Virus record (IMG/VR): IMGVR_UViG_3300021185_002927
Location: 1-22,369 of that record
From: a virus
Length of the DNA: 22,369 nucleotides
Strand: one strand, 5' to 3'
Position 1 is the first letter of the stretch. Every line of letters starts with the position of its first letter. This document shows positions 3,001 through 22,369 of this stretch, piece by piece. The position numbers and the translations under genes were made by a program. The notes under the pieces are model-generated. The model was not told the DNA's origin. It did not search any database and saw nothing but the letters and a program-made list of their open reading frames with translations.

Positions 3001-6000
3001 CAAGTTCTGCAGCATCCGCCCAAGCAACTGCCGATGCAGCAACAGGTTCAATAGAGACATTAATAGCAGTAACTAGTTCATTTGTAAATCCTACAACTTA
3101 CGATTTCGGACCTTCCGCTCAAATGACACTAAATACATTAGGAGACACTCCTAATGGAGCTGGGTTATATCTTGGAGGAGATAAACTAGGTTACTACAAC
3201 GCATCTAACTGGATGTCCTATATGGGCAACGATGGTACATTTATACTTTCAGGCTCTGGAGATGATGGATTAATCTGGAACGGCTCTAGTTTAAGAATAG
3301 GAAACCCAGGAATTTCTCCAAGTTTAGTATACGGATTTTGGCCCGGTACATTAGATGATAATGTATTTGACTCATCAGACGGTATGCTTATTACAGCAGT
3401 TACCTCACCAACAGCTGGAGCAACATTCCAAAATACAGGGTCAAGCGCTTGGGATGAAGGATTCCATACAAAAGCAGTTTTCGATAGAAACGAAGGACAG
3501 GTATTCGAATGGGATGTAATAGCAGGAGACCAGTACCCAGCAACGTATTTAGGATTATACGAAGAATCTCCACAAAGATTTGATTATGACCAATTAATTT
3601 GCGGTTTCTATTTACAATCCAGAAAAATAATGGTAAAAGAGTTCCTGCCTGGAGCTGACACTGTTGAACATGATCTAGCAACTAACGCTTGGGATGATGA
3701 CCCAGACTTTTCTGAAGCTCAATATTTTAGATTGAGACTTACTATTAAATCTGAAGGTGCGGTATACGAAGCATTTAAAAATGGAGATTTCACTTCTCCT
3801 TTGGGTACTATAGATACAACAAGTAATGGTAGTACAGCACAGTACTTTAGACCTGGGATAGTAATTCACTACAGTGACGACGTAGCAGCACATACAGATA
3901 ATAAATTAATATTGATGCAAATGTCCGCCGGTGCTACGATTGGACAAGCAACAAGAATATCAGGTAACGCAGTTCAAACAGGAGCAATTATTTCAACTAA
4001 TTGGGGAGCACAATATGGAACCCAGTTAGATCTAGAAAATAGTACATTTAAACTAGGAGGATCTACATCTCCTAAACTTAGTTTTGATGGTACAAACTTA
4101 AGTGTTGTGGGTAACATAACAGTTACTAACCCTGATACTTTTGCAACACCTTCTTCAAAAAATAAATCTGACTACAATATTATTCTAGTCGCAACAGGAA
4201 GTGCTAACTCATCAACTTCTGCTTTTACTATATCAGAAATAAGTAACTTAGGATATACCGGAGGAAACAACGGTTCTCATTTCTATGATAATAATAATGA
4301 TTCAGATGGGAATATAAACCCATCAAATATTGTAGGGTACGATAGTGTAGATTATGATATGTATGTTTTTGATTGCCGTAACTGGGCGATAAACGGCTCA
4401 GAAGTTCAATTAGCATTAAACTTATTTGACCAAGGAAAATCAGTATTAGTAACAGGTAATGATAATATTGAGGCTAACTACACAGGATCATACAATACAG
4501 AATGGCCTATAGTAACTACCGTAGACGCTTCTGGAACCTGGCAACAAGGAGCTCTAGCTACAGGTTCAGGTATACCGTCATCTCATCCAATACTCTCAGG
4601 AGTTACGGAATTTGGTACTGATACAAATAGCGATACCGGTAAAAAAATTACAAAGTTAAAAAGGCTGCCTCAAGGTGGTTCCATTGTAATGCCTTTAGGA
4701 GTATCCGGAAGTACACAAATGACAGCCACCACCAGTGAATTTATATCAGGAAGTGGAGCAGTGATAGGGTTCTTAATGACAAATCCTAGAGGTGGTAGAT
4801 TGATAAATTTAAATATATACGGATTAAGCAGTGTTAATAGTAAGTTAAGAGAGAACATTACTAATTTCTTACTAAGAACAGATCCGGCAATTGAAGCACA
4901 TTACCTACAAGTAACCTCAATCACAGGTGAAATGGTTAATACAGGTAGAGTAGAATCTACTAACTATATACATGGATCTGGAGATTTTTCAACACAAGGA
5001 ACAAGGATAGATTTAGATAACGGTAGTATTAGAGGAACACAGTTTGAAATAGATACATCAGGTAACGCTAAATTTGCAGGAGATATCACTGGTGCTAGCG
5101 GTATTTTCTCAGGGAATATTACAGCAGCAGGAGGAACAGTAGGTGGGTATACAATACACGGTGATAAGCTATTTACAGGAACAGACGAAAATGTAAGCAC
5201 ATATACATCTACTGCAGGTAGGTTGATTGTATCTTCAAGCGGCGCAATACATACGAATAAATTTTACGTAGATAAAAACGGTAACGCAGGATTTAAAGGT
5301 AGTCTATCCGGAGCAGACATAACAGGTGCAAACGGAACCTTTACCGGTACGGTAGAAATAGGAGGAACAGACTTAACTTTAGCAAACACGTTAAATACAG
5401 AAGATCCAATGTCAGCAGCTTCGTTGACATTTAATCCTAATTTCTTGCAAGTAGCAAGTGACGGTAGACCAGCAGGTGTATACGCCATCTATGGTTCATC
5501 AACAGCAAGCAATATATCATATTCAGGTTCAGCCTCAGATGGAGTAGTAGCGTTAGAATCAAACAGCGATAATAGTATAGGTGCCGCTTTCAGTGCTTTC
5601 TCAGTAGAAAGTGGTAAGAAGTATAAGTTAATAGTAAGATTAAAGTCATCTCAAACAAGTAATAACGGGCTATATATTAGAATGGCGGAATTAGATTCCG
5701 ACATGCCAACTAACACTGTAGCAATTAGTGGTAATACCGTAAATGAAACAAGAGCTGCAGATGGATCTAGAGCACAAGGCCCACTATCTAACTTTTCAGT
5801 TGATGGAGCATCAGTACCAAGTTTTAACAATATAGAAACAAATGAGGATGCTTATAGAGTATACCAAGCTATTTACACACCTACTTCTACAGCTAAGTAC
5901 GCTTCACCTAACATATTAAATTGGGATGCATTAGGTAATGAAGCTCTATACATCGATAGAGTTATAGTACAAGAAACATCCGATATATATACAGGGACAG

Positions 6001-8724: not shown

Positions 8725-9204
8725 ATGGCAACAATCCCTGGATGGACATATAAAGGAAAAACAGTAACTGAGATATCAGATATGCCAGAAGGTACTTATG
8801 GTTTTATTTATGAAACTACTCATAGACCTACTGGCCAAAAGTACCTAGGTAAGAAAGTTTTATTCTTCGAACGTAATAAAAGACTAGGAAAAAGAGCTTT
8901 AGAAGCTTTGAGAGAAGAAAGAAAAGCTAAAGGAATCGGAGGTAGAATACCCTTGAAACAAAAAGTTGTAACAGAGTCTGATTGGAAAGATTATTACGGA
9001 TCTCATAAAGAAATTTTAAAATTAGTTAAAGAAAACGACCCTAATAGTTTTGAAAGAAAAATTTTAGAGTACGTACCTAATAAAAAGCTACTTACATATT
9101 ATGAATGTAAATACCTATTTATAAATGAAGTACTAGAGAATCGAAATACTTATATAAATGATAATGTATTGGGTAAATTTTTTAGAAAAGATTTTAACTT
9201 ATGA
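8725..9204 (+). CDS. GIY-YIG-superfamily nuclease, possible free-standing homing endonuclease
   Basis: 159 residues. YGFIYETTHRPTGQKYLGKK supplies the GIY (GFIY) and YIG (YLGKK) elements; SDWKDYYGSHKE and FERKILEYV follow, then YYECKYLF with the likely catalytic Glu. This is the layout of small phage GIY-YIG proteins (WK.YYGS, then an E.K helix). It has its own promoter-like element and stands between the fibre operon and the cargo genes, as expected for a free-standing mobile nuclease, but it could also be a phage repair or host-DNA-degrading enzyme. The downstream gene overlaps its stop by four bases (ATGA). Confidence 0.7.
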   Translation: MATIPGWTYKGKTVTEISDMPEGTYGFIYETTHRPTGQKYLGKKVLFFERNKRLGKRALEALREERKAKGIGGRIPLKQKVVTESDWKDYYGSHKEILKLVKENDPNSFERKILEYVPNKKLLTYYECKYLFINEVLENRNTYINDNVLGKFFRKDFNL

Positions 9205-9617
9205 AATTAAGAGACATACTATTAAAAGAAAATAACAAATCTTGCCCCGCTGCTACACAGGATTTGATGCTCAATACAAAAAATAGAGATGCATCTATAA
9301 AAGCTCAACATATACAGTATGGACCGCTAAACGTAAATAAACCCGGTAGCTACTGGAAAGAAATAGCAAAGTACTGGAATACAACAGAGGAAGCAGCAAA
9401 GGATACAAATTGCAGTAACTGTGTAGCTTTTGATATTTCACCAAGAATGGATGAATGTATGCCAGGGATAACCTCAGATGAAGAAGGAAGATTAGGCTAC
9501 TGCTGGATGCACAACTTTAAATGTCACTCAGCTCGTAGTTGTAGAACATGGGCAAAAGGCGGACCTATAAATTCAGATAAGATATCAAAAGAGTGGCAAG
9601 AAAGAAATACTAAATAA
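9201..9617 (+). CDS. Cys-rich, HiPIP-like protein with capsid-targeting-like leader
   Basis: 138 residues. It begins MKLRDILLKE, a 10-residue helix ending in L-K-E. Seven Cys follow: 15, 71, 74, 86, 101, 108, 114. The spacing C71-x2-C74-x11-C86-x14-C101 is close to that of high-potential iron-sulfur proteins (C-x2-C, C, C), and the C-terminal GYCWMHNFKCHSARSC and RTWAKGGPI form a conserved-looking end. It could bind an Fe-S cluster or zinc. Translationally coupled to the nuclease gene upstream. Function unknown; metal binding is inferred from Cys spacing. Confidence 0.7.
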   Translation: MKLRDILLKENNKSCPAATQDLMLNTKNRDASIKAQHIQYGPLNVNKPGSYWKEIAKYWNTTEEAAKDTNCSNCVAFDISPRMDECMPGITSDEEGRLGYCWMHNFKCHSARSCRTWAKGGPINSDKISKEWQERNTK

Positions 9618-9623
9618 AATAAG

Positions 9624-10328
9624 ATGATAAAATTAAAACAAATAATAGGAACTCCATCATTACAGTACCATTTAGATAACAATCTCTCTTTATATGAGAA
9701 TGTCTACCGTTATTCTAGTGAAAGCTTTATAGATTTATTTGCAGAAGCAAGAAATGCCTGGAGAGACGGTCTTATAGAACTCAACGAAGAAGATATACAG
9801 TTACTAGAAGATACTGATATTGGAATGTATGGAGTATACGAAGGTAGTAAAGTACCTTTAGATTTACCTATGATAAGAGAAGCTACTGAATATAAGGGTA
9901 GAAAATTAAGTCATGAAGAAGAAGATAGATTAGACTTAATTGCACATCGTGAATTCGATGGTGTAAGCTTTAGTAAATTATCTGATGAGGATAAAGCAAA
10001 AGTATTTGCACAAAGAGATAAAGTAGGTGTTAACGAAGCTGAATATAAAGGAAGAGAAGTACCACTAAACAAACCTAAAAGAGGTGGACCTAAAAAGTTC
10101 TTTGTGTATGTTAAGAATCCAAAAACAGGTAATGTAAAAAAAGTAAACTTTGGAGATAGCGGCAACTTATCAGTAAAAATAAAAGAACCTGGAGCACGAG
10201 CATCATTCGCAGCAAGACATAAATGCTCTACTAAAAAAGATAAAACAAAAGCAGGATACTGGTCTTGTAACATAGGACGTTATTGGAAATCATTAGGAGG
10301 ATCTAAGAATTTCTCCGGGTACTGGTAA
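9624..10328 (+). CDS. Basic phage protein with conserved C-terminal domain (DUF5872-like)
   Basis: 234 residues. The N-terminus MIKLKQIIG resembles the leaders of neighbouring genes, though the first [L/I]-x-E is L-Y-E at 23-25. The middle is acidic and contains EATEYKGRKL and later EAEYKGREVPL, an apparent internal duplication. The last 90 residues are basic: KKFFVYVKNPKTGNVKKVNF, then ARHKCSTKKDKTKAGYWSC and a Tyr-Trp end. From memory this C-terminal block recurs in marine T4-like phages as a domain of unknown function (I believe DUF5872). A head or DNA-associated role is possible. The family name is not certain. Confidence 0.75.
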   Translation: MIKLKQIIGTPSLQYHLDNNLSLYENVYRYSSESFIDLFAEARNAWRDGLIELNEEDIQLLEDTDIGMYGVYEGSKVPLDLPMIREATEYKGRKLSHEEEDRLDLIAHREFDGVSFSKLSDEDKAKVFAQRDKVGVNEAEYKGREVPLNKPKRGGPKKFFVYVKNPKTGNVKKVNFGDSGNLSVKIKEPGARASFAARHKCSTKKDKTKAGYWSCNIGRYWKSLGGSKNFSGYW

Positions 10329-10341
10329 AAAACATAAGACG

Positions 10342-10962
10342 ATGGGAGTAACACAAATTGGGACTACTAATATAAAAGCATCAGATCTTAGGAAAACATC
10401 TGCTACGAATTTTGATAGCGGTAATACCAACACACCAAGTGACTTTTTAGGTTTGAACTTTATGGCTGGGAGTGTAGTACCAGCAATATCTGCTCCTAGT
10501 TGGTCTTCCGGCGGTGCCGCATTCAAAGGTATTTCCTCTTCCCAAAAAGGCTTCCGCACTACTACTGGTTTTAATACATCAAAGTATAGAGTTATAGCAT
10601 TAAGTGCTACCAACTGTCAAATAAATCTTAGCTACCCAACAACAAACGTAAGTGGTATAGTTTGGAAACCTGGATCATCACCTTCCGTAAACAGACTACA
10701 TATTACTGCTGCAGAAACAGCAGACGGCAAAAAACTATTCTTACCGGGAATAGAAAACGGACATACGTACAGTTACATCACTATATCACTCAGTAATTTT
10801 AGCTATGGATATGAAAGAGGTACAAGTTACGTTTGGTACACTCCGACAGGAGGTTTTGTAACAGCATTTCAATCACCAACTAATAACTCACTTACCATAT
10901 ACCCTAATGCCTATACAAGTGATTCTTACTTTCACTTAAAACATTTCGCAGCAACAATATAA
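10342..10962 (+). CDS. Hypothetical protein, probably virion surface or fibre-associated
   Basis: 206 residues, rich in Ser/Thr/Asn/Gly and aromatic residues, with few charges; predicted mostly beta. It opens MGVTQIGTTNIKASDLRKT, similar in style to openings of small phage tail proteins (a T..I..SD(I/L)R pattern). No signal peptide, no leader of the kind seen in its neighbours, and no catalytic motif. Composition resembles the fibre gene rather than the cargo genes. I do not recognise the family. Confidence 0.65.
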   Translation: MGVTQIGTTNIKASDLRKTSATNFDSGNTNTPSDFLGLNFMAGSVVPAISAPSWSSGGAAFKGISSSQKGFRTTTGFNTSKYRVIALSATNCQINLSYPTTNVSGIVWKPGSSPSVNRLHITAAETADGKKLFLPGIENGHTYSYITISLSNFSYGYERGTSYVWYTPTGGFVTAFQSPTNNSLTIYPNAYTSDSYFHLKHFAATI

Positions 10963-10971
10963 AGTTAAAAA

Positions 10972-11229
10972 ATGAGACCCTATACAGAACAGATAAAAGG
11001 TAATTACTCAATTAGAGAGTTTACTCAAACTACTCCTGAAGACGAATTTGTATGGCATAGAGATAGAGAGGATAGGGTAATAGAGACTTTAAAAACAACA
11101 GACTGGATGTTTCAACTAGAGAATAAATTACCAATAAACATATCTGAATCACTATTTATACCAAAGGGAGTATACCATCGTTTAATAAAAGGAACAGGTA
11201 ACCTTAAAGTTAAAATTTATAAACTATGA
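10972..11229 (+). CDS. Small cupin-like protein
   Basis: 85 residues. FVWHRDREDR in the first half and LFIPKGVYHRLIKG in the second resemble the two metal-binding strands of a single-domain cupin, with His and acidic residues placed as in the first motif and PKG..H as in the second. Such short WHRDREDR proteins occur in large marine phages by my recollection. Substrate is unknown. The following gene starts inside its stop codon (four-base overlap). Confidence 0.6.
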   Translation: MRPYTEQIKGNYSIREFTQTTPEDEFVWHRDREDRVIETLKTTDWMFQLENKLPINISESLFIPKGVYHRLIKGTGNLKVKIYKL

Positions 11230-11567
11230 AATTATCTAATATACTTTTAGAGCTAGACTTTGATAAATACAAAGAAGAAGAAGCTGAATTGGCTAGGGAG
11301 ATTAATACTAAGTTTGGAATAACACCATACGTAAGAATGGGAGATTACTCTAGCGGAAGGGAAGATAACGATCCTTTGAAAGACAAAGGTCACGGTAGTG
11401 TAAGCTTCAAGGTAAAGAGTGAATTTGAAGAAAACGAATGGAAAGATGTGATTAACTTTATTAAAAACAAAGGATACGAAATCAGACAAGAGAGTAACTA
11501 CTACGACATCGAGCCAGGAGAAAGAGAATGGTTCCCTAAAATAGACTTTATATTTAACAGTAAATAG
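11226..11567 (+). CDS. Hypothetical cargo-type protein with capsid-targeting-like leader
   Basis: 113 residues. It opens MKLSNILLE, nine residues ending in L-L-E. The remainder is a compact alpha/beta domain: acidic helix KYKEEEAELAREI, then GHGSVSFKVKSEF, EWKDVINFIKNKGYEI and a C-terminal strand PKIDFIF. No recognised catalytic motif. It is coupled to the cupin-like gene and is 5 bases before the mini-kinase, whose first codons (atgaaattatc) are the same, pointing to a shared leader. Function unknown. Confidence 0.65.
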   Translation: MKLSNILLELDFDKYKEEEAELAREINTKFGITPYVRMGDYSSGREDNDPLKDKGHGSVSFKVKSEFEENEWKDVINFIKNKGYEIRQESNYYDIEPGEREWFPKIDFIFNSK

Positions 11568-11572
11568 AAAAT

Positions 11573-12001
11573 ATGAAATTATCAAGAGTCATACTAGGGG
11601 AAATCCTTTACTACGATCCGGCTTTTGAAAAAGCAACAGACGCACTAAGAGACCAAGGTGCAAAGTATCTAGGATCTGGAGACTACGGTTCTGCTTTCCT
11701 TCTTAACGGGAGAGTGTATAAAGTAACAACAGATGAAATAGAACTAGAACACGCGGAAGTACTTAAAGGTAAGAAAACAAACAACTTTGCTAAAATATAC
11801 GATGTAGAAGTTATCAACCCTAAACTAGGCATTATACAAATGGAAGTCTTAGGAGAATTCAGAGGCGACATACCAGAAGAATGGATCGAAGAACTAGAAA
11901 AAGAATCCGCAAGGTTAGGAATAGATCCAGAAGAATTAGATATTAGACCCTCAAATATAATGGTAAACCAAAAAAAACACTTAAAATTAGTTGATATTTA
12001 G
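11573..12001 (+). CDS. Miniature protein-kinase-fold protein with capsid-targeting-like leader
   Basis: 142 residues. The leader is MKLSRVILGE (L-G-E at 8-10). Kinase elements follow in order: glycine-rich loop GSGDYG (34-39), VYK with the ATP-binding Lys at 50, an acidic helix with Glu 59/62, a hinge IIQMEVLGE, catalytic loop LDIRPSNIMV with Asp123 and Asn128, and LKLVDI with Asp141 in the DFG position. Distances D123-N128 (5) and N128-D141 (13) equal those of canonical kinases. The protein stops one residue after Asp141, so it has no activation segment or C-lobe helices. It could be a minimal phosphotransferase or a nucleotide-binding remnant. Confidence 0.75.
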   Translation: MKLSRVILGEILYYDPAFEKATDALRDQGAKYLGSGDYGSAFLLNGRVYKVTTDEIELEHAEVLKGKKTNNFAKIYDVEVINPKLGIIQMEVLGEFRGDIPEEWIEELEKESARLGIDPEELDIRPSNIMVNQKKHLKLVDI

Positions 12002-12019
12002 GATTATTATTCTTATATT
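11991..12019 (+). promoter_or_regulatory. Candidate promoter TTGATA-N17-TATATT before the primase gene
   Basis: TTGATA (11991-11996) lies in the end of the mini-kinase gene and TATATT (12014-12019) in the gap, with exactly 17 bases between. The expected transcript would have a leader of about 20 bases before the ATG at 12046. Same TTG-N20-TAnnTT spacing as the other gap promoters. Confidence 0.45.
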
Positions 12020-12030
12020 ATAAGATAATA
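12005..12030. repeat. AT-rich inverted repeat in the kinase-primase gap
   Basis: CTTATA (12012-12017) and TATAAG (12019-12024) flank one T, and the pairing extends outward through TATTAT/ATAATA with one bulged T. It overlaps the promoter-like -10 element. No U-tract, so a terminator is unlikely; an operator or a weak hairpin is possible. Confidence 0.4.
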
Positions 12031-12045
12031 GTTACGGACAACTGT

Positions 12046-12969
12046 ATGGATTATACCTTTTTATTAGGTTCTATTGAAAATTTACTTGGTAAATCTCATA
12101 AAAGAGCTAGAGAAAATTATGCATTTCACTGCCCTTTCTGCAACCACAGAAAGCCTAAGCTTGAAATAAACATGGCTACTAATGAAAAAGGGCATAACCC
12201 TTGGGAATGTTGGGTATGTCAAACTAAAGGCAGGACAATTAGATCTCTCCTAAAACAACTTAATACACCTAAAGATCAAGCATTACAGATATTAAAGTAT
12301 CTTCCTAAAGGATCTCAAATTGAGTATAAAGGTATAACATCTGTTGAACTTCCAAAAGAGTTCCAAAGACTAGACCAAGCAACAAACACTTCAGTAATTG
12401 CAAACTTAGTTAAAAAATACTTATATGAGAGAGGACTTACCGACAATGATTTTATTAAATATGGTATTGGATACTGCACAAGTGGAGAGTATGGAGGACG
12501 AGTTATTTTACCGAGTTATTCTGGATCCAATAGGCTCAACTATTTTGTTGGAAGAAGTTATGATGGCAACTATTTTAAGTATAAAAACCCCGAAGCTTCC
12601 AAAGACATAATATTCTATGAAAACTTAATAAACTGGGATTGTCCAATAATTTTATGTGAAGGAGTTTTTGATGCAATAGCAATACGAAGAAATGCAATAC
12701 CAATTTTAGGTAAAAGTATATCAAATGAACTATGGAAAAAAATATTATCAAGCCGTCTTACTGACATTTATATAGCTTTAGATGAAGATGCACAAGACGC
12801 AGCTTTAGGCATTGCTGAAAAATTAATATCAGCAGGATTTAGAGTATTTCTAATAGAACTAGCAGGTAAGGATCCATCCGAAATGGGTTTTAAAAAATTT
12901 ACTGAACTAGTACAGAACGCAACAGAACTAGATTTTAGTAAGATAATGTTGCAAAAACTAAACTTATGA
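12046..12969 (+). CDS. DNA primase (zinc ribbon + Toprim)
   Basis: 307 residues. The N-terminal zinc ribbon is CPFC (29/32) and CWVC (55/58). The Toprim core has ILCEGVFDAIAI with catalytic Glu205 and IALDEDAQ with Asp246 and Asp248. It makes RNA primers on the lagging strand and probably acts with a phage helicase encoded elsewhere, like gp61 of T4, though the length and zinc ribbon also resemble compact DnaG-type phage primases. It starts a new transcription unit behind a promoter-like pair and is coupled (ATGA overlap) to the nuclease gene, forming a replication pair. No leader of the cargo type, as expected for a cytoplasmic replication enzyme. Confidence 0.88.
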   Translation: MDYTFLLGSIENLLGKSHKRARENYAFHCPFCNHRKPKLEINMATNEKGHNPWECWVCQTKGRTIRSLLKQLNTPKDQALQILKYLPKGSQIEYKGITSVELPKEFQRLDQATNTSVIANLVKKYLYERGLTDNDFIKYGIGYCTSGEYGGRVILPSYSGSNRLNYFVGRSYDGNYFKYKNPEASKDIIFYENLINWDCPIILCEGVFDAIAIRRNAIPILGKSISNELWKKILSSRLTDIYIALDEDAQDAALGIAEKLISAGFRVFLIELAGKDPSEMGFKKFTELVQNATELDFSKIMLQKLNL

Positions 12970-13748
12970 TTAAACAAGGAATGAACATTCTTGAACAGAA
13001 TGAAAAGAAGAGATTAGATTTTAACCCGCAACTAAAGCAGATTAATTTCTTAGATAGAAGAGTTTATAAGAGAGGCGAAGGAGTATATTACCCGTCCGTA
13101 ACAACTATACTTCAGTATATGCCCAAAAACAAGTTTTTTGAGTCTTGGCTTAAAGACGTTGGGCATAACGCCGATCTTATTATGAGACGAGCTGGAAAGC
13201 AAGGAACTCAAGTACATGAAGCATGTGAACAGTTAGTACTAGGTAAAGAAGTTACCTGGATGGATGATTATGGTAATGCTAAGTACTCTCAAATAGTTTG
13301 GGAAATGATATTAAAATTTGCTGACTTCTGGAGGACACATAAGCCGGAATTAATATCTGCTGAAGATTTTGTATGGTCAGACGAACATAAGTATGCAGGA
13401 ACAGCAGATCTAGTTGTAAAAATGCACGGACAAATATGGTTACTAGATATTAAAACGTCTAACTCAGTTCATAAATCTTTTGACTTACAGCTTTCAGCTT
13501 ACGCAAAAGGATTAGAAGAAGCTAAAGGCATAAAAATAGAACGTACAGGTATCATATGGTTAAAAGCTCACTCTAGAGGTCCATCAAAACAAAAAAACGT
13601 AATACAGGGTAAAGGATGGAAGTTATTGCAAATTGATAAAATAGATGAGAATTTTGAGTTATTTAAAATGATATACAAGTTATATTCTCTAGAAAACCCT
13701 AATACTGAACCTATTTATAATAGTTACCCAACATCATTAAAACTATAA
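12966..13748 (+). CDS. PD-(D/E)XK exonuclease, Cas4/RecB-like
   Basis: 260 residues. The motifs of the family are present: GTQVHEACEQL with the conserved His84, KYAGTADLVV with Asp148, LLDIKTSNS with Asp161 and Lys163, and a following QLSAYAKGL helix with the Q.xxY motif. It probably processes DNA ends in recombination-dependent replication or degrades host DNA. The start ATG at 12966 overlaps the primase stop; Met6 at 12981 is an alternative. No Cys cluster for an Fe-S centre, unlike typical Cas4, so it is closer to the iron-free phage exonucleases. Confidence 0.85.
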   Translation: MIKQGMNILEQNEKKRLDFNPQLKQINFLDRRVYKRGEGVYYPSVTTILQYMPKNKFFESWLKDVGHNADLIMRRAGKQGTQVHEACEQLVLGKEVTWMDDYGNAKYSQIVWEMILKFADFWRTHKPELISAEDFVWSDEHKYAGTADLVVKMHGQIWLLDIKTSNSVHKSFDLQLSAYAKGLEEAKGIKIERTGIIWLKAHSRGPSKQKNVIQGKGWKLLQIDKIDENFELFKMIYKLYSLENPNTEPIYNSYPTSLKL

Positions 13749-13752
13749 ACAT

Positions 13753-14625
13753 ATGGTAAAGAGAAGTGTACTTTTAATTTTAATAGCATTTTTAATAAGC
13801 AGTTGCGGCGTAGGCTTTAAGTATACTACGCTAAACCATGCAGGACATATTGACGGTATATATTCCAGTAATGATATTAAAATTGATACATTAAATGAGT
13901 TCCAAGTAAGAAATAAACTCAGAACAGACTTCCAGTTTAGATATAACTTTGCACAATATGCGCTATCTCAACCTACATCATTTGATTGGAATAACCGTAT
14001 ACTAGGTAACAGATACAACTGGAACAGACCCTATTACGGCTACTATTGGAATAGAACTCAAATGTGGCATGATTGGGTATGGGGGTATCCATATTTTACT
14101 CCACACAGATGGTCACCGTTTGGGTATGATAGATGGGGATATGGAATACACTATGGCTGGAACAATCACGGATGGAGATACAACAGGTACTATAACAATG
14201 GATGGAATAATTACGGATGGAGTAACCTATACGGGTATAGAGGTAGAGTAAACTACCGCCCTAATTATAATAGAAGGAATAATTCAAACTTTGTAATTGA
14301 AGAAGACGGAGTACGGTGGTATAGCAGTTCCAGTGATAATACTAATAGAAGAACTAATTATAATAAAAGAGTAATACGTAACAGCAATGATAAAACTATC
14401 AACAATAATCCTAGAGGATACAGCCGCCCCGAAAGCAATAATAATGGCGGGAGGAGCAGGATCAGGGAAAACATACCTACTCAACCAGTTAGGACTAGAC
14501 AGCCTAATACAATTCAACCCAGACAAATACGTGGAGGACAAAGACCACCCGTATTACAACAAACTAGGACCAGCAGCCAATCAAACGTCAAAGGACGCAA
14601 TGGCAGCAGCAGAGGAAAAAACTAG
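13753..14625 (+). CDS. Flavobacterial-type lipoprotein, cargo gene
   Basis: 290 residues. The N-terminus is a clear lipoprotein signal: basic MVKR, hydrophobic SVLLILIAFLIS, then lipobox ISSC with Cys at about 20. The mature part has an aromatic and Asn-rich middle (for example NGWNNYGWSNLYGYRG) and an Arg/Asn/Gln/Ser/Gly-rich tail. This composition is typical of poorly characterised outer-membrane-attached lipoproteins of Bacteroidota, and I know of no phage structural family like it. It may alter the infected cell surface, for example as a superinfection barrier. The last 79 codons overlap the next gene in another frame. Lipoprotein call is secure; role is inference. Confidence 0.75.
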   Translation: MVKRSVLLILIAFLISSCGVGFKYTTLNHAGHIDGIYSSNDIKIDTLNEFQVRNKLRTDFQFRYNFAQYALSQPTSFDWNNRILGNRYNWNRPYYGYYWNRTQMWHDWVWGYPYFTPHRWSPFGYDRWGYGIHYGWNNHGWRYNRYYNNGWNNYGWSNLYGYRGRVNYRPNYNRRNNSNFVIEEDGVRWYSSSSDNTNRRTNYNKRVIRNSNDKTINNNPRGYSRPESNNNGGRSRIRENIPTQPVRTRQPNTIQPRQIRGGQRPPVLQQTRTSSQSNVKGRNGSSRGKN

Positions 14626-15328
14626 CTTTGTCTGGGATACTACTGCCTCTGGTGTAGGTTTCCAAAAAAACTTAGATAAACTACTTGCTTTAGGGTATGA
14701 AGTTTACATGGTTATGGTGTATGCTCATCCTATGATCTCATACGTATCTAATTTTATGGCTAGAGAAAGAAATATACCTGGAGACTCTGTTTTTGCAACC
14801 TGGAGAAATGTGTATGCTAAAATAGAAGATTTTAATAGACAATTAAAAGGTAATTTATCTATATTCGTTAGTGATAGAGGAGGGAAATACAAAAAAGAAG
14901 TTGAAGGATTTGACAAAGCTGCTAAAAACGGCTTAAGTGGAGTAAAAGATTACTTAGAAAAATTTAACGAAGATAATAACGTTGGAGGATCTTCATTCTT
15001 TGTACCAGTAGAAATGACACCTGAGGAAGAGCAGCAGTTTTTAAAAGATGTTGGAAGTATAGATTGGAATAAAGACAATAGGTCAGAAGATAAAGCAATT
15101 AAAACCGCATTTTTAAAATCCTTTAGAAAGAATGGAGTCGGTCCAGGACAAGATAAACTTAGAGATGCAGTTAAGAAATACAGAGATAGTAGTGAGAAAA
15201 GGAAACAAAAGGCAGATGAAGTATTAGATAATATCGTAGATATGATATATAATCCAACATTTCAAGAAAAGCTAAAACACTCCTCAGTATCAGAAATAGA
15301 TTCTAAAGTACAAGCATTTTTAGCATGA
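14387..15328 (+). CDS. Zeta-toxin-like P-loop kinase with capsid-targeting-like leader
   Basis: 313 residues. The leader is MIKLSTIILE (I-L-E at 8-10). Walker A is GGAGSGKT (22-29), followed by QFNPDKYVED and SFVWDTTASG, which resemble the substrate/base region of zeta-toxin and related kinases (NPD, then an internal D). The C-terminal half is helical and charged. Likely a small-molecule or nucleotide-sugar kinase; the true substrate is unknown. Start and Walker A both lie within the lipoprotein gene, so the ATG at 14387 is needed to make an active kinase. The stop overlaps the next ATG by four bases, so it is probably cotranslated with the nucleotidyltransferase fusion. Confidence 0.8.
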   Translation: MIKLSTIILEDTAAPKAIIMAGGAGSGKTYLLNQLGLDSLIQFNPDKYVEDKDHPYYNKLGPAANQTSKDAMAAAEEKTSFVWDTTASGVGFQKNLDKLLALGYEVYMVMVYAHPMISYVSNFMARERNIPGDSVFATWRNVYAKIEDFNRQLKGNLSIFVSDRGGKYKKEVEGFDKAAKNGLSGVKDYLEKFNEDNNVGGSSFFVPVEMTPEEEQQFLKDVGSIDWNKDNRSEDKAIKTAFLKSFRKNGVGPGQDKLRDAVKKYRDSSEKRKQKADEVLDNIVDMIYNPTFQEKLKHSSVSEIDSKVQAFLA

Positions 15329-16512
15329 TAGCACTATACCCAGGAGCATATAAACCACCACATAGAGGACATTTTAATGTAGTAAAATCTTTACTAGACG
15401 GTTCATATAACGGTTCGGTATACGACAAGGATAATTACAAAGAGACAGGTGCAAACTTACTTAAAGGAAAAAGTAATAATAAGCCTAAAATTGATAAAGT
15501 AATAGTATTTGTAGGAGCAGGGGAGAGAAACGGTATATCTAAGGATGAGTCAATGTCTATATGGAATATATACTCTAAATATTTAGGTAATGTAGAGATA
15601 CTAGATGGAGGTAAGAATCCAATGTTTGCAGCTAAAGACTATGCACAAGCAAACCCTGATCAAGAATTTGTATCAGTAACAGGTATCAGAGGAGATAAAG
15701 ATTTTGTGGACTTAAGAAGAGTGACAACATTTAAAAACGCTCCAAATGTAAGTGGATTAGCTCTAGCAGCAGCACCAGGTTCAGGTATTAGAGCAACAGA
15801 CTTTAGAAATACAATATTATCTGGAAATTTAGACAAGGTTTTAGATTTCTTCCCAGAAGACCTCTCTAGAGAAGAAGTGTTAGGTATACTAACAGACTTA
15901 AAAGATAAAATAGTATCGGAAATATTAGCTAATAATATTGAAGGTTTTTTAACTAACTATTTTGTTACAGAAGAGATAGAAGATAAAAAGACTATAAAAG
16001 AAAATAATACAAAAACAGACATAAATAACCTTTATAATTACCTAACCAGATTAGTACCGAATAACACAGAGATAGAATACAAAGGAGATCACTTAAGAGT
16101 TGGATTTAAACAAATCGCCGAAAGTAAAGAGAGTAAACTAGAATTAAAAGACTTTATATCTTCACTAACCGAATATATGATAGACCAGGGTATGGAGATA
16201 ACTCCACTACCGAACGTAACTATTAAAAAAGATCAAGCAAATGCTTCAAACTTTTTTGGGAGAACAGCATATTATGACCCGAATAGTAAAGAGATAGTAC
16301 TCTACATATCCGGTAGACATGACAAAGACATAGTAAGGTCGTACTCACATGAAATGGTACATCATATGCAAAATTTAAAAGGTACTCTTCACAACATACA
16401 GACTCAAGATACAAACGCAGATAGTGATTTATTAGAGTTAGAAAAAGAAGCATACTTAATAGGAAACATAACATTCAGAAACTGGGAAGATAATTTAAAA
16501 AATAACTACTAA
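15325..16512 (+). CDS. Nucleotidyltransferase / HExxH metallopeptidase fusion
   Basis: 395 residues. The N-terminal half is a HxGH-type nucleotidyltransferase of the NMN-adenylyl/cytidylyl transferase group: YPGAYKPPHRGHF with H13-R-G-H16, and SGIRATDFR (from 153) in the place of the ISSTxxR motif. A charged linker follows (about 210-235). The C-terminal half holds SYSHEMVHHMQ with H342-E-x-x-H346 and a downstream LEKEAY in which Glu375 could be the third zinc ligand, as in gluzincin peptidases. Probable roles are nucleotide transfer (NAD-related or cofactor chemistry) and protein cleavage, but the substrates are unknown. It has no leader of its own; it follows the kinase gene with a four-base overlap. 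Confidence 0.75.
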   Translation: MIALYPGAYKPPHRGHFNVVKSLLDGSYNGSVYDKDNYKETGANLLKGKSNNKPKIDKVIVFVGAGERNGISKDESMSIWNIYSKYLGNVEILDGGKNPMFAAKDYAQANPDQEFVSVTGIRGDKDFVDLRRVTTFKNAPNVSGLALAAAPGSGIRATDFRNTILSGNLDKVLDFFPEDLSREEVLGILTDLKDKIVSEILANNIEGFLTNYFVTEEIEDKKTIKENNTKTDINNLYNYLTRLVPNNTEIEYKGDHLRVGFKQIAESKESKLELKDFISSLTEYMIDQGMEITPLPNVTIKKDQANASNFFGRTAYYDPNSKEIVLYISGRHDKDIVRSYSHEMVHHMQNLKGTLHNIQTQDTNADSDLLELEKEAYLIGNITFRNWEDNLKNNY

Positions 16513-16517
16513 AAAAG

Positions 16518-16546
16518 TTGTTTCTTAATATTAATTTTCGTATATT
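16518..16546 (+). promoter_or_regulatory. Candidate promoter TTGTTT-N17-TATATT before the HAD gene
   Basis: TTGTTT (16518-16523), 17 bases, TATATT (16541-16546), giving a leader of about 20 bases to the ATG at 16576. The string AAAGTTGTTTCTTAA (16514-16528) is identical to 8685-8699. A 10-base palindrome TTAATATTAA (16525-16534) lies in the spacer. Confidence 0.5.
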
Positions 16547-16575
16547 AAGTATTAATAGTATAAACTAAAAAGGTT

Positions 16576-17166
16576 ATGAATACAAGTATAGTAGACTTAT
16601 TAGAAGCACATCCACCGACTGTAGAAGAGAAAATCTCTAAATATCAAATATACTGTGATATGGATGGAGTATTAACAGATTTTGAAAGTAGATTTCATGA
16701 AAAGTTAAATCAAGTAGGACCTAAGTACTACCCTCTAAAAGATATAAAAAAGGTAGTTAAGCCCAAAGACTTTGAAGCAATATTTGGTATGACTGAATTC
16801 TGGAAGTTCATAGATCAAACAGTAGGTGTAGCATTTTGGGTAGGTATGGACTGGATGCCAAGAGGAAAAGAACTATGGAGTTTTATATCTAAATATAACC
16901 CATCTCTACTAACTTCTCCATCCAGAGACAATACATCTAGACTAGGAAAAAACCTTTGGACTAAAAACAATCTTACACCAAAACCTAAAGTAATATTTGC
17001 ATACTCAGCTAATAAACAGAATTACGCTAACCCTAACGCTATACTTATTGATGATAAAAAATCAAATATAGAAGAATGGCGAGCGAAAGGCGGGATAGCA
17101 TTTAGAGTAAAAGGAGGAGATATAACAGAAGCAATTAACGGACTAAAAGAATTAGGATATGAGTAG
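16576..17166 (+). CDS. HAD-superfamily phosphatase, 5'(3')-nucleotidase-like
   Basis: 196 residues. YCDMDGVLTDFE gives the HAD nucleophile motif (Asp28, Asp30); LLTSPSRD is motif II (Thr/Ser), and ILIDDKKSNIEEW is motif IV (Asp159/160). Size and the DMDGVL form fit the deoxyribonucleotidase (NT5C-like) group, so dNMP or sugar-phosphate dephosphorylation is plausible. The N-terminal MNTSIVDLLE (10 residues, L-L-E at 8-10) precedes the HAD core by about 13 residues and resembles the capsid-targeting leader. Overlaps the next gene by eight bases. The ATG is preceded by AAAAGG, the nearest thing to a Shine-Dalgarno in the window. Confidence 0.8.
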   Translation: MNTSIVDLLEAHPPTVEEKISKYQIYCDMDGVLTDFESRFHEKLNQVGPKYYPLKDIKKVVKPKDFEAIFGMTEFWKFIDQTVGVAFWVGMDWMPRGKELWSFISKYNPSLLTSPSRDNTSRLGKNLWTKNNLTPKPKVIFAYSANKQNYANPNAILIDDKKSNIEEWRAKGGIAFRVKGGDITEAINGLKELGYE

Positions 17167-17731
17167 TAATCTTAAAAAAGAATTTAAGCATTCAGATGTA
17201 GAGAGAATGCGTAATATTATAAAAAAAGATTATACCGGAAAAACTAAACTTCAAACAGGTTATAAAAAAATTCATAAAAAGTATAAAGAAGGAGACATAT
17301 GGGAAGAAGCAGGTAAAAAGTGGACTATAAAAAATGGACTTAAACAGAATATAACTAAATTAGACGCTGCAAAAAACGCCATTAAAGTCCCTTTAACTTG
17401 CCCTAAATGCGGTAGAGCCATTAAATCACATATATCTAAAGAAGCTTACAAGGTAAATAAAATGTGTTTTGATTGTGTAATAGACTGGCAAGCTGAACTG
17501 AGAGAAAAAGGATTACTCGAAGAGTATTTAATTCATGCTAAAAAAGGCAACTTGAAATACTATATAAATGAAATTGAAGCACAACTAAAAGATACTTTGG
17601 AACAGACTAACGACTACGTTACTGAACAAGGAGATATCGAAAACTGGAATAGTAGTAAACAAAAGGAAAAAGCAATCGTTACTGAAAAAGTTAATGAATA
17701 CATAACCTACCTAAAGAGTAAGTTAAATTAG
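17159..17731 (+). CDS. Zinc-ribbon protein of unknown function
   Basis: 190 residues, strongly basic in the N-terminal half. CPKC (Cys81/84) and CFDC (Cys103/106) form a zinc ribbon about 20 residues apart, preceded by EGDIWEEAGKKWTIKNG and KLDAAKNAIKVP, a block I recall from other T4-like phages. The C-terminal third is a charged helical segment. DNA or RNA binding is plausible but not shown. It begins inside the end of the HAD gene and is followed by a 47-base gap. Confidence 0.65.
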   Translation: MSSNLKKEFKHSDVERMRNIIKKDYTGKTKLQTGYKKIHKKYKEGDIWEEAGKKWTIKNGLKQNITKLDAAKNAIKVPLTCPKCGRAIKSHISKEAYKVNKMCFDCVIDWQAELREKGLLEEYLIHAKKGNLKYYINEIEAQLKDTLEQTNDYVTEQGDIENWNSSKQKEKAIVTEKVNEYITYLKSKLN

Positions 17732-17741
17732 CCTCTATTTA

Positions 17742-17773
17742 TTAGATATACTTATAATCTTATATATATCTAA
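17742..17773. repeat. AT-rich inverted repeat with TATAAT in the loop
   Basis: TTAGATATA (17742-17750) pairs with TATATCTAA (17765-17773). The 14-base loop holds TATAAT (17753-17758), which could be a -10 element, but no TTG stands 17 bases upstream. TCTATTTATT (17734-17743) here is repeated in the next gap at 19736-19745, in each case within three bases of the preceding stop. Confidence 0.45.
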
Positions 17774-17778
17774 AAAGT

Positions 17779-18135
17779 ATGACACAGAAACAACTACTAG
17801 AATCAGTTCTAAATGAACTAGTACATATTAAAAAACATATGCCGAATGGTGAGTTAAAATCCATGCAGTCGGATATGAAAGCTTTGAAGGAGGATGTATC
17901 GGATTTAAAGTACACATTACTCAACCCAGAAGACGGAGTAATAGTTAAAACAAACCAAAATTCTCAATTTAGAAAAAAAATGGAAGTGGGCGAAAAAGAA
18001 TTTAGCTCAAAAATGATAGAATTAGACGATTTAAAAAGATGGAAAGATAGTGTATCTAAAGCCCTTTGGATAATATTTGGAATACTCGCAGGTTTGGTAA
18101 TGAAAGTATTTGTAGAGTTTTTAAAGTTGAAATAA
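17779..18135 (+). CDS. Coiled-coil protein with one C-terminal membrane segment
   Basis: 118 residues. The N-terminal two thirds are amphipathic and charged (LKSMQSDMKALKEDVSDLKY), then a membrane helix ALWIIFGILAGLVMKVFVEF (95-114) and a short basic tail. This layout is like small holin-related proteins of the XhlA group or a membrane tether, but no lysis partner is visible here. The opening MTQKQLLE has L-L-E at 6-8, weakly like the leaders elsewhere. Function unknown. Confidence 0.65.
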   Translation: MTQKQLLESVLNELVHIKKHMPNGELKSMQSDMKALKEDVSDLKYTLLNPEDGVIVKTNQNSQFRKKMEVGEKEFSSKMIELDDLKRWKDSVSKALWIIFGILAGLVMKVFVEFLKLK

Positions 18136-18138
18136 ACT

Positions 18139-18723
18139 ATGAAAGTTCCATCTAATATAGAGAGTATAATAAGAGAATCACTAAGAGATTGGTTTAAGAA
18201 AGAGAAGTGGGTACGCATTTCTTCTTCCGGGAATATAGCTGGTGATTGCGGAACATCAAAAAATAAGAAAAACCCAGACAGGTGTTTACCTAAAGCGAAA
18301 GCACAGAGTTTAACTAAAGGGCAAAGAGCCGCTACAGCAGCAAAGAAAAAGAAAGCAGGTAGTAAAGGAAAAACAGTCGTGAAAAATACTAAAAAAGCAA
18401 AAGTAAAGAAAGAAGGACTTTGGGCTAATATAAACGCTAAGAAGAAAGCAGGAAAAAAATCTTCCCATAAAAACTCTAATGCATATAAAGACGCTAAAAA
18501 AGCAGGTACGTCTTTAGAGAAAACTAAAGAAGGAGTTACAAAAGAAGATTTAAAAAATTTAGTAGTGGGTATGGTACACGAAACTACTAATGAAAATACT
18601 ATCATGGAAAAAGATGATAGATGTACTAGATTAGCAAAATCAAAATATGACACCTGGCCATCAGCATACGCCTCCGGGGCAGTTGTCCGTTGTAGAAGAG
18701 GTGAAATTTGGAAGAAAAAATAA
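18139..18723 (+). CDS. Basic two-module phage protein (DUF6321-like plus WPSAYASG module)
   Basis: 194 residues, very Lys-rich. Opening MKVPSNIESIIRE ends in I-R-E. Module 1 is EKWVRISSSGNIAGDCGTSK with NPDRCLPKAKAQSLTKGQRA and a basic Lys tract, which I recall from T4-like cyanophages (I believe DUF6321). Module 2, the last 40 residues, is DRCTRLAKSKYDTWPSAYAS with GAVVRCRRGEIWKKK, also recurrent in such phages as a separate short protein. The linker DLKNLVVGMVHE between them looks like a second leader. The protein is suited to binding DNA in the head. DUF name recalled, not verified. Confidence 0.75.
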   Translation: MKVPSNIESIIRESLRDWFKKEKWVRISSSGNIAGDCGTSKNKKNPDRCLPKAKAQSLTKGQRAATAAKKKKAGSKGKTVVKNTKKAKVKKEGLWANINAKKKAGKKSSHKNSNAYKDAKKAGTSLEKTKEGVTKEDLKNLVVGMVHETTNENTIMEKDDRCTRLAKSKYDTWPSAYASGAVVRCRRGEIWKKK

Positions 18724-18724
18724 A

Positions 18725-18925
18725 ATGCCTGCAAAACTAAAACCAAGTACTAAAGAGTACGTAAGAGATGTTAACAATAGAATAACAAATAAGTGGTTCT
18801 GGAAACATTACACTGTATCCGCTACCTCTACCGAAAATCTAAAAAAGTTTTATACTGACCCGAATTACAGAAAGAAAAAAAATGTAATACTTAAAGAACT
18901 GAAAAAGAGAAATGAAGAAATCTGA
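18725..18925 (+). CDS. Small conserved phage protein
   Basis: 66 residues from the ATG at 18725, two bases after the previous stop. The frame stays open upstream to 18647, but that start would lie in the end of the preceding gene and gives a non-conserved tail, so 18725 is preferred. The sequence MPAKLKPSTKEYVRD and TNKWFWKHYTVSATSTENLK is of a kind I recall as a small protein of T4-like marine phages. Basic and helical. No known function. Its last 14 bases overlap the next gene. Confidence 0.7.
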   Translation: MPAKLKPSTKEYVRDVNNRITNKWFWKHYTVSATSTENLKKFYTDPNYRKKKNVILKELKKRNEEI

Positions 18926-19112
18926 GTTGACTCAAATCATAAAAGAAGTATTGCAAGAAGGTCCCCACGATCCGGTTAAGCCCGGCATACTCAAAAAACG
19001 TTTAGGTAAATTATCCTGTTCTAAAGTTAGAAAAGCAAAATCAGGATTAAAAGATAAAGGTACTCACTATGCGAAAGCACTCCAAAGATACTTAAACTAC
19101 CATTGTCAATAA
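18912..19112 (+). CDS. Small basic protein with capsid-targeting-like leader
   Basis: 66 residues. The leader [16 protein letters not shown] holds two [L/I]-x-E sites (I-K-E and L-Q-E). The body, [20 protein letters not shown] followed by [15 protein letters not shown], is basic and helical and resembles a short conserved phage family of unknown function. If the leader is cleaved at L-Q-E, a 50-residue basic peptide remains, reminiscent of T4 internal head peptides. It overlaps its neighbours on both sides. Confidence 0.7.
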
Positions 19113-19775: not shown

Positions 19776-22369
19776 ATGACTTACGAAGAATTAAAAGTAC
19801 GTTTAACGTCTGTAGAAACAACCCTACAGCAATTACAAACAACAGAGTCTACCAAATTATCTACAACTTATATAGAAGATTCAATAGAACAGTTAAACAT
19901 AGTACGTGAAAATATACTCTCTAAAATGAAAATAATAGAAGAAGGAGACGAAACTATGTTCGTTTCCACTAAAGGTGGCGACACTAAAGCAGTAAAAATG
20001 GATAGAAAAGCAGCAATGGACCTAAAAAAAGATCCTGCAATCACAGGGATAGACACTGCCAAAGGAGCAAAAATAAAAGAAGCGGAAGATAAAGGAGTTG
20101 CTTTTTCTACAACGGAAACAAAATTAATAGCAAAATCAGTTGGTAAAGCTTTAATAATAACACTCAAGAAATTAGGAGACGAAATAGCAAGAATTAAAGC
20201 TCATAGAATAGAAGAAAATAGCTTCGATATATTTATAGATTATAAAGCAGAAAAAGGAGTAGATGAATTTTCTTTTTATATAAAAGAAGATATGTTGCAT
20301 CTAGTTGATTTTTCTTTTGATAAAGAATTAGTTGAGGTTGGAGTTAAACCTTCAGGTGAAGCTATTGTAAATGTAGACGTACTATCAAATGAATTACTAA
20401 AACATTTTAAATCATTAAGTGAAGGAGGAGATTACGATCCTGACCAAGAACAGAAAGATGATGAAGAAGATCATGGAGTAGGTTACGATGACGAAGGACG
20501 CCCCTTAGGAGAAGGTGAAGGAGATGACCATCACTATATCAAAGTAAAAGCACACGATTACAAGAAAGCTATGGCTATCTTAGATCAAAACGTAGATCCA
20601 ACTTATGTTAAGATGGAAGTTATTGACAATGACGGAGCTGGAAATGTGATTATATACTTTATATTTAAACATGAAAGCGGTTTTGACGACATGTACGATG
20701 ACTCAGAAAATCAAGATTCAGAATTTTACCAAGAACCAGATGAAGATCCACAAGCATTCGTTTACGATGTAGTAATGGATTTACGGGCTAACGATATTGA
20801 ATTAGCAGATCATTCAGCAGATATGGATGAAGCATTAGATATTAATGACCCAGTTCTTATGAAAATGAGAGTTGCTAAAAAAAGAAACGCTGATCTTAAG
20901 AAAGTAGATCAAATGCACGCCCGTGATAGAAAAGATCAAAGAATAAACGGTAGAAAAAGACTCTTAATCAAACAGCTTAAAGATAAAAGAGCTGAGATAG
21001 AAAGAGAGATGGAGAATGATCCAGAAATCGAACCAACAGGAGGACCAGTAGCTGATAGATATGGTGATATGTTAAATAAAATTGACAACGCTATAGAAAA
21101 AGCAGCAGGTAGAATTAAACCTTTAGATTACGATACTGCAGTAGGCAAAGTAAATGAGGACGAAGGACACTTAGTTACCTTTGGATATGATTTAGATAGA
21201 ATTCAAGATGTAGTTGATCATTTAAAGTCTAAATATAAAGAAGGACAAGATTTTGAACTTCATATAGGTAGGGGAGATGATTTACCTAATGCAGTGACTT
21301 TAAAGAATCCTGATTTAGAAGGTGATTATGACTTAAACGATATGCTAAACGCAGCACAAGACGATCAAGATAGATACGATGCTTACACCGACTACGACCA
21401 ACGCAGAAGAGAAGAGGACGATTATTACGAAGATCCTAACTACTATAAAGAAGAAAGAAATATGAATGAAATTAAAGCTGCTAAAATACAAGCAGCTCAT
21501 AGTAAAGTAGTTAACATAATGAAAGACCTTGCTAAGAAATATAAAGCAGGCGATAAATCAGTAGTAGATCAACTAAAAACACTTACAATCACTAAAAAGA
21601 AACTAGAAAAAGAATTAGAAAAAGCAGTAGCCGGTACACACCATGGACAGGAGTTAGACGAAAAGCAGCTACATGAATATGCTTCTAGAGATTTAGATGA
21701 AATATTTGGAGCATTAGGGTATAGACAAGGTTTTGATGAATTTATAGAAGATAATCCTGGAGCTGTAGAAGTTTTAATGGAATGGATAAGCTCAATCTCA
21801 GAATTTAGAAGTAGGTTATCTCAAGAATACGATAAAGAAGAATTAGAAAGATTAGGATTCTACGATTTTGACGAAGATGACTTTAATGAAGAAATTAGAG
21901 AGTCACTAAACCCAGAAGTATCTAAATCAGTAGATCGCTTTATTAAAGCTATGGCTAAGAGATACGGATATAAAGAGCAAGATGCTGTTTATGCTATTAT
22001 GGCAGCTTTGAAACAAAGAGATTTTGATGGAGTAAATGAATCTAAATATGAAAAAGAAGAAACTACTCAACAAACAATTGATAGATTAAAAGCAAGAATA
22101 GCCGACCCAAATGATGGAGGGAATGTACCTTTTTTAACCCAAAAAATAAAAGATCTAGAAAAATCATTAAATGAAGACTTATCAATGAAAATTGGTAAAG
22201 TAGTAGCTATAAAAAAATACAATGCAGTTAAGAATCAAAAATTACCTGTAGATGTAAAAATAACCGACTATATTAAAAAACCAGGCTCAAAGGATTTTGT
22301 AGAGTATGAACATAAAGGAAAGAAAAGAAAAGTTTCTATTGACGTATTCAAATCTATTTTAGCTGAATC
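19776..22369 (+). CDS. Giant acidic structural-type protein, 3' end outside window
   Basis: The frame from ATG at 19776 has no stop before the right edge, so at least 864 codons. It is very rich in Asp, Glu and Lys. Segments: N-terminal coiled coil (EELKVRLTSVETTLQQLQTT), an alpha/beta part (about 19900-20420), an acidic low-complexity linker (20430-20530), a second alpha/beta part, Lys/Arg-rich helices (20880-21120), an Asp/Tyr-rich stretch (21370-21470), and a helical block with LDEIFGALGYRQGFDEFIED and SVDRFIKAMAKRYGYKEQDA. Near the edge are short beta-like segments. This looks like a multi-domain virion or prohead-core polyprotein, with abundant [L/I]-x-E sites available for a prohead protease, but no enzyme is recognised. 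Start is supported by the upstream gap and promoter-like pair. Confidence 0.7.
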   Translation, partial: MTYEELKVRLTSVETTLQQLQTTESTKLSTTYIEDSIEQLNIVRENILSKMKIIEEGDETMFVSTKGGDTKAVKMDRKAAMDLKKDPAITGIDTAKGAKIKEAEDKGVAFSTTETKLIAKSVGKALIITLKKLGDEIARIKAHRIEENSFDIFIDYKAEKGVDEFSFYIKEDMLHLVDFSFDKELVEVGVKPSGEAIVNVDVLSNELLKHFKSLSEGGDYDPDQEQKDDEEDHGVGYDDEGRPLGEGEGDDHHYIKVKAHDYKKAMAILDQNVDPTYVKMEVIDNDGAGNVIIYFIFKHESGFDDMYDDSENQDSEFYQEPDEDPQAFVYDVVMDLRANDIELADHSADMDEALDINDPVLMKMRVAKKRNADLKKVDQMHARDRKDQRINGRKRLLIKQLKDKRAEIEREMENDPEIEPTGGPVADRYGDMLNKIDNAIEKAAGRIKPLDYDTAVGKVNEDEGHLVTFGYDLDRIQDVVDHLKSKYKEGQDFELHIGRGDDLPNAVTLKNPDLEGDYDLNDMLNAAQDDQDRYDAYTDYDQRRREEDDYYEDPNYYKEERNMNEIKAAKIQAAHSKVVNIMKDLAKKYKAGDKSVVDQLKTLTITKKKLEKELEKAVAGTHHGQELDEKQLHEYASRDLDEIFGALGYRQGFDEFIEDNPGAVEVLMEWISSISEFRSRLSQEYDKEELERLGFYDFDEDDFNEEIRESLNPEVSKSVDRFIKAMAKRYGYKEQDAVYAIMAALKQRDFDGVNESKYEKEETTQQTIDRLKARIADPNDGGNVPFLTQKIKDLEKSLNEDLSMKIGKVVAIKKYNAVKNQKLPVDVKITDYIKKPGSKDFVEYEHKGKKRKVSIDVFKSILAE

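Follow-up and report, generated by a model that had tools for sequence, protein, structure and literature searches.

Putative capsid-targeting leaders of the T4 kind on many unrelated proteins of marine T4-like phages of Bacteroidota

The window analysed here is the whole of IMG/VR virus record IMGVR_UViG_3300021185_002927, 22,369 bases in length. Judged by its sequence, it is a piece of the genome of a T4-like relative of Flavobacterium phage vB_FspM_immuto (immuto); the group consists of marine T4-like viruses of Bacteroidota. Several of its genes, all on the plus strand, open with a short leader that resembles the capsid-targeting sequence of phage T4. Nine such open reading frames were named in an earlier note on this DNA; all start where it placed them and carry the leader peptides that it quoted. 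Type 1 leaders are MKLRDILLKE (9201..9230; gene 9201-9617, a 138-amino-acid Cys-rich protein), MKLSNILLE (11226..11252; gene 11226-11567), MKLSRVILGE (11573..11602; gene 11573-12001, a minimal kinase-like protein) and MIKLSTIILE (14387..14416; gene 14387-15328, a P-loop kinase of the Zeta_toxin family). They are kept in 9/10, 11/12 and 15/16 members of the first three families and in 77/79 relatives of the Zeta-type protein. In the family of 11573, Glu at residue 10 is invariant down to 43% identity. Leader variants are MNTSIVDLLE (16576..16605; gene 16576-17166, a 5'(3')-deoxyribonucleotidase), MTQKQLLESVLNE (17779..17817; gene 17779-18135, a weaker case) and MKVPSNIESIIRE (18139..18177; gene 18139-18723). 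A type 3 leader of 12 residues opens a 66-amino-acid basic protein (18912..18947; gene 18912-19112). The proposal of one leader family on all the named genes needs correction to this extent: those at 16576, 17779, 18139 and 18912 bear subtypes other than MKLxxIILE. Gene 9624-10328, a weaker member from the outset, has an N-terminus conserved in relatives, in which [L]-x-E falls at residue 25, not 10; it is plausible only with a probable longer leader, MIKLKQIIGTPSLQYHLDNNLSLYE (9624..9698), ending LSLYE or LSLHE. The nuclease at 12966, credited with a partial match (ILE), is not a member: N-terminus and body are equally invariant, and one relative has Lys in place of the Glu. The start of a large acidic protein (19776..22369) runs off the window end. 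The immuto protein taken as its counterpart, from position and shared sequence, opens with MKKLIRIVE.

The same gene order as in the window is present in G001, a record of 167,696 bases, across the shared stretch; its Zeta-type gene is 92% identical to the window copy at the protein level. A T4-type gp21 protease (PF03420, E 6.6e-37) and a gp23 capsid protein (PF07068, E 4.7e-79) are encoded in G001. The closest cultured relative by gp21 is immuto (75% identity), in whose record gp20, gp21 and gp23 are annotated in the same order. The gp21 (S77) and gp23-type capsid genes of the relatives and immuto lie outside the window fragment. On the relatives' map the window covers the stretch from about 27 kb to about 12 kb upstream of gp21. 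A search for Peptidase S78 across the window gave no match; the T4-type S77 protease is located outside this fragment. A tblastn search of deposited phages with the Zeta-type protein gave no match.

Leader frequency was compared with chance under two patterns. The strict pattern (M-[K/R]-L-..-I-I-x-E, with Glu at residue 8-12) was derived from the finding itself; it occurs in 4/22 window genes, against 0.07 in shuffled N-termini, and at 0/97 internal Met positions. In each of eleven genomes or large contigs, the window among them, there are 3-8 matches, against 0.07-0.26 after shuffling, and a single match was found among about 5,400 internal Met positions of the relatives. The excess over shuffled N-termini is about 20-60-fold. 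Random N-termini thus do not match as often, an outcome that the note had named as fatal to its proposal: the shuffled and internal Met controls are both near zero. No match was found among 225 genes of the control phages phi38:1, phi14:2 and crAss001, which are Bacteroidota phages of other lineages and in which gp21 was not searched for. For a test independent of the finding, a T4-derived pattern was added, fixed from published T4 mutagenesis (hydrophobic residues at -6, -3 and -2 before the Glu). It is matched by 5/22 genes of the window (0.5 expected), 12/183 of G001 (2.6 expected) and 16/217 of immuto (4.3 expected). The leaders at 17779, 18139 and 18912 fit it, that at 9201 fits the strict pattern, that at 11226 fits both, and that at 16576 departs from the T4-derived pattern at -3 and -6. 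In 98 kb of T4 itself 8 matches were found, against 2.5 expected: IPII, IPIII, Alt, gp24, gp2 and three others. Of the eight, five are head proteins that are internal or cut by gp21. An initial, looser pattern, which asked for [L/I]-x-E and for Lys or Arg close to the start, gave an excess of about 2-5-fold over shuffling and was superseded by these two.

Leader classes were also obtained without any preset pattern. A total of 2,121 proteins of these phages were grouped by their bodies (residue 21 onward) into 452 families, and N-termini were compared between families. Pairs of families scoring at least 30 numbered 68, against 5 after shuffling. The MKLxxIILE leader forms a cluster of 17 families, a few of which (e.g. 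47 and 61) are linked by looser likeness. A second leader, M-NFDLRKFL-EN, forms a cluster of 7 families; with bodies counted beyond residue 34 it stands on 18 groups. A third class, MKKSELxxIIKE, is present in immuto and at 18912 in the window. Secretion and lipoprotein signal peptides form a cluster of 11 families, which serves as an internal control. A short N-terminal leader common to unrelated bodies, the mark of a T4-type capsid-targeting sequence, is accordingly found in these phages. The hydrophobic core of at least 10 residues that marks Sec and lipoprotein signal peptides was not found in the leaders, and signal peptides cluster apart from them. One grouping of 249 members (family 0) was not taken as a single real family; low-complexity acidic sequence has probably linked its members in a chain. 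The bodies of the second leader were regrouped on their own.

The leader behaves as an exchangeable module. The gene directly after gp21, between gp21 and gp22 (family 9), opens with MKLASIILE in G001; several others have MKLSELILE there. In contig L065 a 31-residue leader of the second type replaces MKLSELILE on a body that is 91% identical: the protein opens with MENSFNLRKFLSENKLTTNSRVLAETEILKE, followed by SDENQLGAELAKA, where in its siblings SDETQLGAELAKA comes after MKLSELILE. L/I-x-E (ILKE) immediately precedes the junction. This junction is present in three contigs, all of one lineage, one of which has a synonymous base difference, so that an assembly error is unlikely. The final residues EIL-E may survive from the former leader, whose cutting site would then have been retained through the exchange. 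In immuto and L128 the family-9 body bears the third leader class. Three phages bear the type 1 leader on family 124, whereas immuto bears type 3 on it. The homologue of 18139 in G001 has a different leader (MKQSTVRDIVKE), and the body is conserved from ESLRDWFKKEKWVR onward. The leader is thus separable at the putative cleavage site, as seen both in the swap and in the differing classes on homologous bodies. The converse is seen at the locus just before the kinase-like gene, occupied by 11226 in the window, where other phages have the same leader on unrelated bodies (MKLTNIIFE on 143 amino acids in G001; MKLSSVILE on 99 amino acids in G015). The alignment of N-termini across related genomes that the note had called for therefore bears it out: the leader is common to unrelated bodies and swapped between homologous ones. 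Members of family 9, among them L042:13061-13606, share a further site that hardly varies, [V/L]-[N/Q]-E and then V, A or S, about 37 residues further along; it may be a second gp21 cut. Two long hydrophobic stretches are present in the family-9 core protein.

Selection on the leader was measured in eight families as the ratio of nonsynonymous to synonymous differences per site (pN/pS). Synonymous sites of the leader are saturated (pS 0.62) and pN/pS is 0.32; the members were picked by pattern, which favours the leader somewhat. The ratio rises to 0.44 after the leader, up to residue 30, and is back at 0.32 in the body, a profile like that of a signal with a linker behind it. The common start might instead have arisen as a side effect of 5' ends that are AT-rich and weakly structured and so favour translation, or of recent unselected copying of 5' ends; the AT-rich genomes and the start codons that often overlap the preceding gene would fit this. 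Variation at synonymous sites together with conservation of the leader residues speaks against an effect on translation; the near-zero shuffled and internal controls and the absence of the leader from Bacteroidota phages of other lineages count against both versions. An explanation of this kind is scarcely credible, and the aid to translation that the note had allowed for is rejected by the codon analysis.

Most leader genes of the three classes are found within -27 to +8 kb of gp21, an interval chosen with the map in view. Counts near gp21 and elsewhere are 6/36 vs 1/147 in G001, 6/39 vs 2/165 in G015, 4/45 vs 2/151 in G016 and 9/37 vs 3/180 in immuto. A prohead protease had been recommended as the thing to look for; the search found the T4-type gp21 in the relatives, with the same leader on the neighbouring gene. 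Sites of the form [L/I]-x-E are depleted in the bodies of leader families, which were likewise chosen after looking (ratio 0.65 vs 1.20 in matched families, P about 0.01). Fewer internal sites are expected if gp21 must not cut the bodies further.

The bodies include enzyme-like domains. The Zeta_toxin match of 14387 (Pfam, E 9e-12) starts at residue 11. The protein of 16576 matches 5'(3')-deoxyribonucleotidase phrog_2643 (E 7e-22) and has an extension of more than 20 residues before its catalytic DMDGV motif; the extension is absent from the Atu_ph07 homologue, which starts almost at the motif. For 11573 a weak Pkinase match was obtained. Its AlphaFold model is of low confidence (mean predicted local distance difference test score, pLDDT, 56), the fold matches are mostly to kinase folds (E about 0.005), and the leader lies outside the predicted fold (pLDDT about 25). 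From weak fold matches and motif order, 11573 is likely a minimal protein kinase. In the nucleotidylyltransferase-like protein of 15325-16512 the motif begins at residue 6, too early for a leader to precede it, although the gene just upstream bears a leader. The C-terminal part of the nucleotidylyltransferase-like protein holds a metalloprotease-like HEMVHH motif.

In T4 IPIII, residues 4 and 7 serve targeting, and residues 8 and 10 serve processing (PMC9026906). Change of the final Glu to Asp blocks cutting, not targeting (PMC9026906). The T4 leader has been suggested as a general means of protein loading for T4-like phages (PMC9026906, PMC3012670). Like IPI-IPIII of T4, the proteins described here have a leader of about 10 residues on otherwise different bodies, with hydrophobic residues at T4 positions 4, 7 and 8, Glu at 10 and a gp21-family protease in the same phage group. 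Unlike them, the leaders are not T4 sequences and fall into several classes of 9-31 residues; the cargo families are many more and include enzyme-like domains; the hosts are Bacteroidota. T4 gp24 (MAKINELLRE) and Alt (MELITELFDE) have the same spacing of -6, -3, -2 and Glu, on bodies unrelated to the window proteins; the gp24 leader is close to MKLRDILLKE of the window, and Alt is an injected enzyme. An N-terminal signal directs DarB of phage P1, a large protein, into the capsid and does so for a reporter too; P1 is of a different lineage, and in the parts of the source consulted a family of [L/I]-x-E leaders shared by many proteins is not described (PMC9024508). Giant phages of the SPN3US/phiKZ type are described as having head proteins whose propeptides are cleaved by a prohead protease and which are ejected with the DNA (PMC7411985, PMC5694885). 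A literature search found no description of such leaders for the present phage group. Microcystis phage Mel-JY01 (L173:11243-14461; 54% gp21 identity; annotated host a cyanobacterium), a more distant relation, has leaders of a similar kind, MGKLINILLSE and MKIKKIIFE, near gp21. Pelagibacter phage HTVC008M (L256:46563-49001) has a P-loop kinase-like gene opening with MIPFILKE just before a cytidylyltransferase. The pair resembles the window pair 14387-16512 and suggests a leader system wider than Bacteroidota phages.

The leaders are probably capsid-targeting sequences of the T4 kind, cut by gp21, of several classes and with many cargoes. The short amphipathic leader, with hydrophobic residues at about -6, -3 and -2 from the Glu, would dock its protein onto the scaffold core of the prohead. 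Cutting by gp21 after the Glu of [L/I]-x-E would release the mature protein within the head, from which most cargoes would be ejected with the DNA into the next cell. At least three leader classes (MKLxxIILE, M-NFDLRKFLxEN and MKKSELxxIIKE) are interchangeable, and window cargoes would include the Zeta_toxin-family P-loop kinase, the minimal kinase-like protein and the deoxyribonucleotidase. The earlier proposal of capsid-targeting leaders on head-packaged proteins finds support in gp21 and gp23 of the relatives, in leaders shared and swapped, in selection and in clustering; location in the virion, cleavage and injection are presumed from these. Several points weigh against it. The window fragment itself is without gp21. 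The leaders at 9201 and 11573 place their front hydrophobic residue at -7, not -6, and the final leader Glu is Asp in some relatives of the nucleotidase. The gp23 site aligned with the T4 cut is V-A-E or V-S-E, not [L/I]-x-E. A mild excess of such sites is all that gp22 has, and it was not used as support. Families 66 and 96 account for a few leader genes that map to the early region, a long way from the head genes. The interval for clustering and the families for depletion were selected post hoc, and gene starts of the metagenomic records come from the author's own gene caller. A literature search found no virion proteomics, N-terminal sequencing or targeting assay for this group; virion proteomics of immuto was not found, and the Flavobacterium phage paper PMC7077304 covers other phages, without mass spectrometry.

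Two other accounts keep a function for the leader. The proteins may be targeted to the prohead core, and perhaps cut by gp21, and yet serve head assembly or reside in the capsid instead of being injected effectors. The large acidic proteins, like the family-9 protein that follows gp21, resemble core or structural proteins, comparable with gp67, gp68, gp21 and gp22 of the T4 core; kinase-like, Zeta_toxin-type and nucleotidase domains are unexpected in a scaffold, however, and bodies at one locus vary between phages like the T4 internal protein sets. This account is a lesser chance, though one of some weight. It is improbable, in turn, that the leaders are amphipathic N-terminal helices for another purpose, such as docking to a membrane or host complex, and uncut by gp21. 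Amphipathic helices have many uses and some leader genes are in the early region, but the terminal Glu is conserved, the swap junction lies directly after it, the leader stands on the gene adjoining gp21 and agrees with T4 at the important residues, and it is missing in Bacteroidota phages of other lineages.

Early-region location was observed in several genomes for family 96 (G001:36293-36829) and family 66 (27805-28167 in L039); if packaged, their products are good candidates for early-acting injected proteins. Elsewhere in the window, a 2670-amino-acid tail-fibre open reading frame (270-8282) contains an Intein/Hint-like segment (6963-7392, from near SVEANTEITV to near ISDGILSHN), recognised by eye and possibly an intein or self-processing domain.

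It is about an even chance that this abundant marine group of Bacteroidota phages has a general head-loading code, in which interchangeable leaders arm the virions with a changing set of 10-20 injected enzymes (minimal kinases, Zeta_toxin-type kinases, nucleotidases). The leaders are possible new loading tags for phage-based protein delivery. The natural swap is evolution's own experiment and suggests that the leader classes are equivalent. Candidate injected effectors are named in a phage group with a cultured member. If capsid targeting by these leaders is true, the proteins that a T4-like phage delivers with its DNA would be readable from sequence by the leader, for uncultured marine phages as well.

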